64,000 bases of DNA from Pseudomonadota bacterium (lineage in GTDB: Bacteria; Desulfobacterota; Syntrophorhabdia; Syntrophorhabdales; Syntrophorhabdaceae). A model generated the notes under the pieces. That model had not been told where the DNA came from. It did not search any database and saw nothing but the letters and a program-made list of their open reading frames with translations. Within the stretch, counting starts at the first letter, position 1. Every line of letters starts with the position of its first letter. Location of the stretch: the NCBI GenBank assembly GCA_026388275.1, contig JAPLKB010000058.1, positions 676 through 64,675 on the forward strand. The letters are read 5' to 3'. Position numbers and translations under genes: made by a program. Below, piece after piece: positions 422 through 57,190 of the stretch.

Positions 422-1126
422 TTTTTACTATTCACTAAATACTATTCACTGTTCACTGCTTTTTTATGATTTAACTTAAGATGCCCCGACAAAAGATGTA
501 CTTACAAAGATGTGCTTTAATTTATAAACATGTATTGTAATAGATACACTATATCAAATATTATTTTCAAGAATATTTTTACAAAAAAATACAAAATATT
601 CAAAAACTTTTATCCGGCCTTTCCCTGTGATCCCTGTGAGAGACAAATGCATTTGTAGTTTTTCCTCAAGGCTTGGGTATTATAATAGGTATTGTCAATA
701 GTTGCATGAAAAATTGGTTCACAGAATGAATATATACAAGCTTTTACAAAGAGAAAACAGGGGGAGGGAGAGCAACAAATTGAAGATGGAAAAATTTGCC
801 CCCTTGTTTATTCCGGATTCACATAATCGTATATGTGAATCCGGGTTGAGTGGGTTGCGGCATGTCGGGGATGTTGCAGATGTGGATGGGCTGTGAGATT
901 TGCAGGCCGCAGACGTACTGAACGTACGTCGGAGGATCGCAAGGCGAAGCAGAACGCCGCAGATCAATATCCCCGAACATGCCGCAGACCGACCGAGAGA
1001 AAAGAGCTAAAAATACTCAAAGAGGAGCTTGTTCGACAGGGAATTTAAAGTTGAGAAAAGGGAAGATCAGATGAACAAAAAAGGCAGGGCTGAATTGACC
1101 CTGCCTCGATGATTGATCGTTTATGA
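422..1126. other. Intergenic region with one structured repeat
   Basis: No supportable gene is seen. The possible short frames here lie within the structured repeat at 813-985 on both strands and have no family features. The rest is AT-rich with no clear terminator or promoter. Confidence 0.6.
813..985 (+). repeat. Dispersed structured repeat, family 1, copy 1
   Basis: The element opens with a 13-bp inverted repeat, CCGGATTCACATA (813-825) with TATGTGAATCCGG (832-844). The body is closed by a long stem: GCGGCATGT (857-865) pairs with 977-985 and GGGGAT (867-872) with 969-974. At its centre is a perfect hairpin GACGTAC-tgaac-GTACGTC (912-930). The same architecture recurs inverted at 56732-56909, with conserved internal blocks such as GTCGGAGGATCGCAAGGCG. 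It carries no open frame of note and no transposase. The stems differ in sequence between copies but remain paired. Confidence 0.85.
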
Positions 1127-2023: not shown

Positions 2024-2240
2024 TATGATATCCTCCTTAATGGAATATTATTGCTCTTTCGACTGTCGAAAAAATAGCGCTGCACCATAGCCTGCAGCAC
2101 ATCTTCGGCAGCCGGCTGTCTTCTCGTGAGAACGCAAAAATATCTCTACCGAGACCCTTTAGCTTTCCATCCCGTCCTCGCGGATAGTTTGGTTTTTTCA
2201 TACTTACTTTAACAAAGTATGACAAATTTAATTTTTTGTA

Positions 2241-7494: not shown

Positions 7495-7569
7495 GGGCGG
7501 ATAGCTCAGCGGGAGAGCATCGGCCTTACAAGCCGGGGGTCGCAGGTTCAAAACCTGTTCCGCCTACCA
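7495..7569 (+). tRNA. tRNA-Val (anticodon TAC)
   Basis: The 75 nucleotides fold as a normal cloverleaf. The acceptor GGGCGGA pairs with TCCGCCT, the D stem GCTC with GAGC, and the anticodon stem TCGGC with GCCGG around the loop CTTACAA (anticodon TAC, valine). The T arm is GCAGG-TTCAAAA-CCTGT. The CCA end is encoded. It sits directly downstream of a strong promoter and 7 bases before a tRNA-Asp-like sequence. Confidence 0.95.
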
Positions 7570-7576
7570 TTTAAGC

Positions 7577-7646
<70 letters not shown>

Positions 7647-30722: not shown

Positions 30723-31153
30723 CTCTCTTCTCCTTTCTAATAATCTAACATTCTGTATTTCTTCCGAATGATCCTCTAAATTCCTGTTTTCATATTTTGC
30801 TACTACATTTCATAAAACTTTTGACAATACCCTAATGCTGAAAGTCATAATATAAAGTTTTTCTACTACAATATTTTTTTAATGTATCACAAAAAGGTAT
30901 TATTATCTATAATAAAGAAAATATGTAACTAATAATCAATATATGGATATTATCAAGTATTTAACTATCGAATATATATTCTTAGATTATCCCTCAATTA
31001 TTGTTGGAAAATATTTACAAAAGCATTGCCTGATGTATTATTTTGTAATTTTCCTGTTTTTACGGGGACAGGCTCAATATAAGCAGATAAAACAAAGCGA
31101 TATCCCACGTAGGCGGGACATACAATAATTTAAACTATATTTTTCATTGAATA
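30723..31153. other. Intergenic region upstream of the porin gene
   Basis: AT-rich leader and promoter region of the porin, on the minus strand. A partial copy of the small palindrome seen at 12-33 lies near 31104-31124 (GCGGGACATA). No gene is seen. Confidence 0.5.
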
Positions 31154-56688: not shown

Positions 56689-56731
56689 CCGGGCCTTTGC
56701 TATGTGTTATTTCCATGTTTTCTCTTTAGCC

Positions 56732-56909
56732 GGACATCGGCATGTTCAAAAATTTTGATCTGCGGCGGTCTGCTGCGCCTTGCGATCCTCCGACGTACAT
56801 TAAGTACGCCTCCGGCCTGCAAGACTTACAGCCCATCCACATCTGCAAAATTTCCGAAATGCCGATGTCCACTCAACCCGGATTAGCATAAGCGTTTATG
56901 CTAATCCGG
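56732..56909 (-). repeat. Dispersed structured repeat, family 1, copy 2 (inverted)
   Basis: Inverted relative to the copy at 813-985, with the same order of parts. The outer stem GGACATCGGCAT (56732-56743) pairs perfectly with 56859-56870. The central hairpin is CGTAC-attaa-GTACG (56794-56808). The terminal inverted repeat is CCGGATTAGCATAA (56878-56891) with 56896-56909. Conserved unpaired or internal blocks include CCGGGTTGAGTGG and GCAGATGTGGATGGGCTGT on the minus strand. The stem sequences differ from copy 1 but stay complementary. Confidence 0.85.
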
Positions 56910-56974
56910 AAAATGAAAAGACATAGATTGTTTTTCATATCTTCTATTTCATTCCACTATTTTATTATAAAAAC

Positions 56975-57190
56975 TTGAATATATTATCATGTAACCTTGC
57001 GAGAGAAATGGAACTTGTGGCAAGGGAAGAAGGCAAGCCTATCAGCGCATTGATTCAGGATGCTGTAAGGATTTCGCTGAAAGAAAGGCAGAAAAAGGAA
57101 TTCTATCAAATTAAGTATATTGTGAGAAACGCAATACTTTTGGCAGACTTGACAAACAGCATACAATCACATATAATCGAATATAGTTAA
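56975..57190 (+). pseudogene. RHH (CopG-type) antitoxin remnant
   Basis: The frame LAREMELVAREEGKPISALI and VRISLKERQKKEF is the helix-helix part of a ribbon-helix-helix antitoxin. The N-terminal beta-strand expected before it (such as RTTISLPEE) is missing. The only start is TTG 56975 with no ribosome-binding site, and the tail after the RHH part is not typical. It ends four bases before the Fic gene. A PIN-toxin fragment lies beyond Fic at 58404-58535, so this may be half of a former RHH/PIN pair. It could instead be a short but still used partner of Fic. Confidence 0.5.

Follow-up and report, generated by a model that had tools for sequence, protein, structure and literature searches.

A probable MITE-like element family with a conserved, strand-favoured fold and Shine-Dalgarno-linked insertion

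We describe a family of dispersed, structured elements for which the best explanation, and in our judgment a probable one, is a MITE-like non-autonomous DNA transposon of ~365 bp, inferred to be mobilised in trans, with selection on the fold of its + strand. That selection is evident in the sequences themselves; whether it acts on a leader RNA or on single-stranded DNA is unproven. The first-pass annotation of the DNA had left the choice between a mobile element and a structured RNA, and each option is correct in part. Terminal repeats and an 8-bp duplication bear out a non-autonomous transposon, and one strand's fold is selected, while neither RNA production, an RNA function nor a mobilising transposase has been shown.

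Small bacterial repeats are usually seen as relics. This family joins transposon ends, a covarying and strand-favoured fold, and insertion tied to the Shine-Dalgarno sequence, and so opens two questions to testing: how a transposon persists in leaders while the gene survives, and whether mobile elements are able to recognise the signals of translation start.

Copy number, ends and target duplication

The window, meaning the whole stretch analysed, comprises 64,000 nucleotides at positions 676-64675 of contig C58 of a 3.53-Mb genome (G000; 71 contigs, 99.5% complete), hereafter the own genome. The first-pass annotation had reported a pair of ~175-bp copies, at 813-985 and 56732-56909. Both copies are real; they lie on the + and - strands, and BLAST within the window aligns them over 194 bp at 81% identity (E 2e-49). 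Their stems differ in sequence yet stay complementary, the GGGGAT/ATCCCC stem giving way to an AT-rich pair and the GTAC hairpin being kept, just as had been described. The reported size was too short, since copy 1 runs from 688 to about 1021 and most two-ended copies measure about 360-376 bp. Nor are the copies merely a pair: a covariance model, the search that the annotation had proposed, finds 56 matches in the own genome (E<=0.01). BLAST scoring gives at least about 40 copies, and a full-element profile gives 58 entries after joining split matches, in 60 fetched stretches. The parts of the family that lie in the window are as follows.

688-1021, +: copy 1 as far as it can be recognised, without its 3' terminal repeat (matches positions 1-332 of 368 of the profile; L196)
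688-703, +: 5' terminal inverted repeat of copy 1, GGTATTGTCAATAGTT, 1 mismatch to the consensus (C58:1363-1378)
813-844, +: hairpin H1 of copy 1 (CCGGATTCACATA..TATGTGAATCCGG)
850-990, +: hairpin H2 of copy 1, the core common across the phylum (covariance model match C58:1486-1665 together with the limits of H2)
912-930, +: central GACGTAC/GTACGTC hairpin at the tip of H2, copy 1 (predicted pairs)
30816-30831, -: lone exact terminal-repeat sequence with no structured body nearby (C58:31491-31506; L204)
56707-56984, -: copy 2 as far as it can be recognised, without either terminal repeat (matches positions 43-323 of the profile; L197)
56732-56911, -: H1 and H2 of copy 2 (covariance model match C58:57407-57586, minus)

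Comparison of flanks showed that homology extends well past the limits first reported and ends in 16-bp terminal inverted repeats, GGTATTGTCAAAAGTT ... AACTTTTGACAATACC. Both ends are present in 18 own copies, which we call end-intact when they carry both repeats with up to 5 mismatches in each; the termini read GG...CC and a full copy is ~365 bp long, mostly 360-376 bp. At least 7 of 8 flank bases are identical in 6 of these 18 copies, versus 0.33% of mismatched pairs, and duplication lengths of 7, 9 and 10 bp are met in only 1, 1 and 0 of the 18. The terminal inverted repeats and the 8-bp target duplication therefore identify a non-autonomous, MITE-like transposon. The remaining 12 end-intact copies have no clear target duplication, which is to be expected if they are old, although their age is not proven. 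Both window copies are old, copy 1 being without its 3' terminal repeat and copy 2 without either, and for both the 3' neighbour is a convergent gene, so that no start codon lies there. Single terminal-repeat ends also occur on further contigs of the own genome (for example C22, C27, C34, C39 and C40).

The element holds no transposase gene within its ~365 bp, in agreement with the first-pass annotation; the only open reading frames overlapping copy 1 are of 51-82 amino acids (not compared with protein libraries). A peptide or coding origin was dropped, as copies differ by single-base indels that disrupt the reading frames. These indels speak against decay from a coding sequence, one of two outcomes that the annotation had named as refuting its reading.

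Some copies are variants in which modules of 80-90 bp replace the central hairpin, or which carry an internal duplication, and one derivative of 143 bp consists of the ends only. Two unrelated 80-90-bp modules take the place of the tip of the central hairpin, one set in L153, L159 and L161 and the other in L173, L174, L175 and L184. By eye, one such module resembles C-rich/G-rich inverted repeats in other flanks.

Mobilising enzyme and replication strand

We infer that a DDE-type transposase supplied in trans would have moved the element. No mobilising enzyme was identified: the transposase families searched in the own genome were PF01609 (IS4-type transposase) and PF01797 (Y1 transposase), and neither gave a match in this draft of 71 contigs. 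Mobilisation by Y1/RAYT was rejected, as the presence of Y1 and of element copies do not correlate across genomes; copies occur without any Y1 transposase in G044 and G045, and G032 has 8 Y1 matches and no copy.

The same distribution weighs on a second reading, in which an HUH (Y1/RAYT-type) enzyme recognises folded single-stranded DNA hairpins, as it does with REP sequences, and the element spread on one replication strand. We consider this unlikely, yet it has support. Structural selection on one strand is in its favour, head-to-head pairs occur in G027 and G042, and in some genomes the orientation of copies follows the replichore. In the complete genome G236, copies are arranged in two orientation blocks, with which 86 of 102 agree (0 of 2000 shuffles did as well) and which match the GC-skew halves, and gene strand bias in the samples from this genome is weak. 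The complete genome G321 has the same polarity (34 of 43 copies; 15 of 2000 shuffles). Because orientation follows the replichore in these two genomes, it points to DNA over RNA there. The block pattern recurs in G422 (15 of 16 copies; 30 of 2000 shuffles).

However, the pattern was not seen in G363, G140 or G317, and copies in the own genome, judged from short flanks, show no GC-skew or replication-strand bias. HUH enzymes of the Y1/RAYT type use the lagging-strand template, whereas it is the leading-strand template that holds the structured, more stable strand in G236 and G321. Such a bias could arise if copies with their stable hairpin facing the lagging-strand template were lost, although that is an inference. 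The own genome maintains its 56 copies without Y1, and those copies carry terminal repeats and, in part, 8-bp duplications, neither of which suits the single-stranded-DNA reading. The strand biases in other genomes nonetheless keep it alive, and we do not exclude it.

Placement before gene starts

A start codon preceded by a Shine-Dalgarno sequence lies 19-25 nt past the 3' end in 14 of the 18 end-intact copies, compared with 662 of 82,890 intergenic points in the same stretches (0.8%) and with none of 18 on the 5' side. AGGAGG (5 or 6 of 6 bases) stands exactly 12 bp past the 3' end in 10 of the 21 copies that have one, any other offset accounting for at most 2. The 3' neighbour is co-directional in 33 of the 50 own copies for which one was called, although the open reading frames behind this count, like those next to the window copies, the distant H2-only elements and the copies in G174, were called by a crude script and not by a gene finder. 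With one orientation and a position ~12 bp before the Shine-Dalgarno sequence in most end-intact copies, the structured strand would belong to the leader of the next gene.

In older copies the spacing varies (41-106 nt from a landmark), and for this reason we read the fixed spacing as an insertion preference; variable spacing in older copies fits targeting at the time of insertion better than it fits a kept function. Alternatively, the fixed spacing may reflect survival of harmless insertions, the gap between promoter and Shine-Dalgarno sequence being among the few tolerable places. In predicted folds, the freedom of the Shine-Dalgarno sequence is 0.559 with the element and 0.554 without it. 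A reversed element would hide the Shine-Dalgarno sequence (0.227; the real element scores higher in 28 of 31 leaders, p=2e-7), which partly explains the orientation. Relative to shuffled elements the gain is only weak (0.559 versus 0.491, with the real element ahead in 17 of 31; p=0.066), and self-folding was rejected as the reason for the structure.

Leader position and co-orientation with the gene could also arise if the element were a cis-regulatory RNA, riboswitch-like or a protein-binding leader, that controls downstream genes and spread for that reason, and the deep covariation and conserved inner nucleotides described below would suit such an RNA. We hold this to be quite improbable: terminal repeats and target duplications mark mobility, the downstream genes have no common theme (judged by eye only), and older copies have not preserved a set distance from the start codon. 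Rfam has no match over the element at gathering scores; at relaxed thresholds five distant H2 elements give no match, and copy 1 gives only mir-4716, over H1 (E 1, far under the cut-off). Among distant elements made up of H2 only, both flanking genes are opposite to the structured strand in 13 of 22 cases, and hence a leader-RNA role cannot be general; the mixed orientations in G174 also count against such a general role.

Building on the transposon reading, we put forward one further conjecture, which we regard as doubtful: that the integration complex reads the Shine-Dalgarno sequence at a fixed distance of 12 bp and in one orientation, that the folded strand (RNA or single-stranded DNA) is part of the machinery, and that new copies are in effect ready-made, translation-neutral leaders.

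Selection on the fold of one strand

The first-pass annotation had inferred selection on structure from two copies, and the family as a whole upholds this inference. Alignment A1 was made from sequence only and contains 39 own cores (6 of 58 entries were left out before cores were cut, and 13 of 52 cores before A1, 12 for long inserts plus L152). Compensatory change is found at 29 of its 59 predicted pairs, and the lack of covariation, the other outcome named beforehand as refuting, was thus, on counts of this kind, not what the 39 copies yielded. Standard pairs fill 96.9% of cells, and double-change cells number 174, against 48 in shuffled and at most 31 in slid controls. In the outer helix of H1, 6 of 8 pairs have compensatory change in A1.

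Of 59 pairs, 52 have compensatory change in the order-level alignment A3 (68 sequences from the own genome and relatives), where double changes number 725, compared with 187 shuffled and at most 132 slid; the input of A3 was limited to 55 of the 60 fetched stretches of relatives and 12 own stretches, at E<=1e-11. The H2-only set has compensatory change at 34 of 41 pairs (model-fitted, 27 rows including two opposite-strand matches). A3 and A4 were fitted to the model and lean towards it; A1 and A5 were not, and two opposite-strand rows of A4 were removed before A5 was made.

Imperfect pairs reveal the strand. Read on the + strand, mismatches comprise 239 G·U versus 15 A·C, or 25 versus 12 when distinct pair types are counted, and in the phylum set 60 versus 12. 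The asymmetry is partly inherited, certain G·U pairs being fixed throughout the family. It is not a product of the strand on which the structure was predicted: prediction on the reverse strand gives 211 A·C and 42 G·U, which is again G·U on the + strand. The + strand also folds more stably in 39 of 39, 68 of 68 and 24 of 24 sequences. An excess of G·U over A·C of this size means that the fold of one strand, the + strand, has been selected. Inner nucleotides are conserved, and inner loops and bulges are kept and are not symmetrical.

It is highly improbable that no selection acted and that template-switch repair, a process known for quasi-palindromes, kept the arms alike and produced the compensatory changes by mutation alone; such repair would account for arms that match within one copy and differ between copies, but it should leave G·U and A·C in equal number, contrary to both sets, and does not predict the conserved asymmetrical loops and bulges, so that arm-correcting repair is insufficient by itself.

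Under the transposon reading, two reasons for the selected fold can be inferred. A leader RNA may have to fold on itself, leaving the Shine-Dalgarno sequence free, for which there are no transcript data, or the + strand may be recognised during transposition.

Distribution across genomes

Within the order, a model built from the own genome detects the element in 13 of 46 genomes. For the phylum, a model that includes relatives, applied to no more than 6 candidates per genome, detects the core hairpin in 108 of 395 sampled genomes, representing 70 of 246 genera. Distant copies mostly consist of H2 alone, about 125 bp long. In a set of 36 genomes, 24 have matches at E<=1e-4, namely every one of the 18 phylum members chosen and 6 of the 18 genomes that were reached via named loci. 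Copy numbers reach 102 in one complete 2.75-Mb genome; Desulfovibrionaceae UBA6814 has 39, Desulfovibrio UBA4079 has 20, and Desulfobacteraceae BH30 and a Proteobacteria MAG have 4 each. The matches in Variovorax CAN15 (2 copies) and Mariprofundus (1) are both weak. From these names we infer that the phylum is probably Desulfobacterota. Of 118 stretches that had come up through chance matches to a 16-mer, 100 (up to 8 kb, from named and mostly unrelated genomes) were used as a negative control, and the order-level model matched none of these 100 at E<=0.1. One H2 element searched against plasmid and phage records had no match.

Matches to the terminal repeats are sparse among relatives (10 of 38 genomes). 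In G174 and G329 the same hairpin is flanked by their own, different terminal repeats, and the hairpin is therefore common to several sets of ends. The best explanation is that the core hairpin predates these terminal repeats of the own genome, and that related elements carry it across the phylum.

Two observations on relatives may be recorded here. Head-to-head pairs of elements, like composite repeats, are found at L296 (1135-1317 and 1364-1541) and L281 (1029-1250 and 1340-1526). Separately, L302 and L313 come from the assemblies of two different relatives, and their contigs are equally long (8432) with the element at identical coordinates, perhaps through cross-contamination in binning.

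Relation to known repeats

The likenesses and differences drawn here rest on passages of the cited sources. The element resembles bacterial MITEs, which are short and non-autonomous, with terminal repeats, target duplications and dozens of mostly intergenic copies, and which give stable stem-loop transcripts (PMC10969869); one of them, Chunjie of Geobacter uraniireducens, has 38 copies of 178-235 bp (PMC10969869). It differs from MITEs as that text describes them in its strand-specific covariation and Shine-Dalgarno-linked insertion, although its sequence was not compared with Chunjie.

Like ERIC and Correia/NEMIS, the element is small, folded and mobile, and its orientation matters; for those repeats, orientation affects the outcome for the mRNA, and NEMIS hairpins are proposed targets of RNase III (PMC2229807). 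Their termini are TA in the table of that source, whereas the element of the own genome has GG...CC and an 8-bp duplication; in the distant relative G174 many copies end in TA. The pneumococcal BOX, RUP and SPRITE repeats share a modular interior and insertion in leaders and operons, and their co-transcription has been reported (PMC3049150). They belong to another host, and that source has no mention of covariation or compensatory change; sequences were not compared.

REP and REPIN sequences with RAYT are likewise dispersed hairpins, sometimes in head-to-head pairs (PMC3116915, PMC2817692, PMC3733652). In contrast to them, the element is ~10 times the length of a 20-40 bp REP, has terminal repeats, and occurs in a genome without Y1 transposase; the survey of GTAG/CGTC REPs contains no delta-proteobacterial names in its text (PMC3733652). 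The multicopy nucleotide sequences of Geobacter are similar in being intergenic palindromic families, some of them predicted RNA elements (PMC2700814, PMC2996986). The one consensus quoted there, GRCGTAGCGCTGCTACGCC, differs from the element, and a link is not excluded.

Within the literature searched, core words of the element sequence led to no relevant paper, and nothing closer than the repeats above came to light. In the sources searched we did not find this MITE-like family described, and its strand-favoured conserved fold and Shine-Dalgarno-linked insertion are unusual.

Other features of the window

A c-di-GMP-I riboswitch lies at window positions 2104-2203 on the minus strand (Rfam; 48.2 bits, gathering score 35), upstream of a minus-strand open reading frame at 1127-2023. 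The C-terminus of this frame has what we take to be a resemblance to a PEP-CTERM sorting signal. Rfam also places an adjacent pair of tRNA genes at 7495-7643 on the plus strand.
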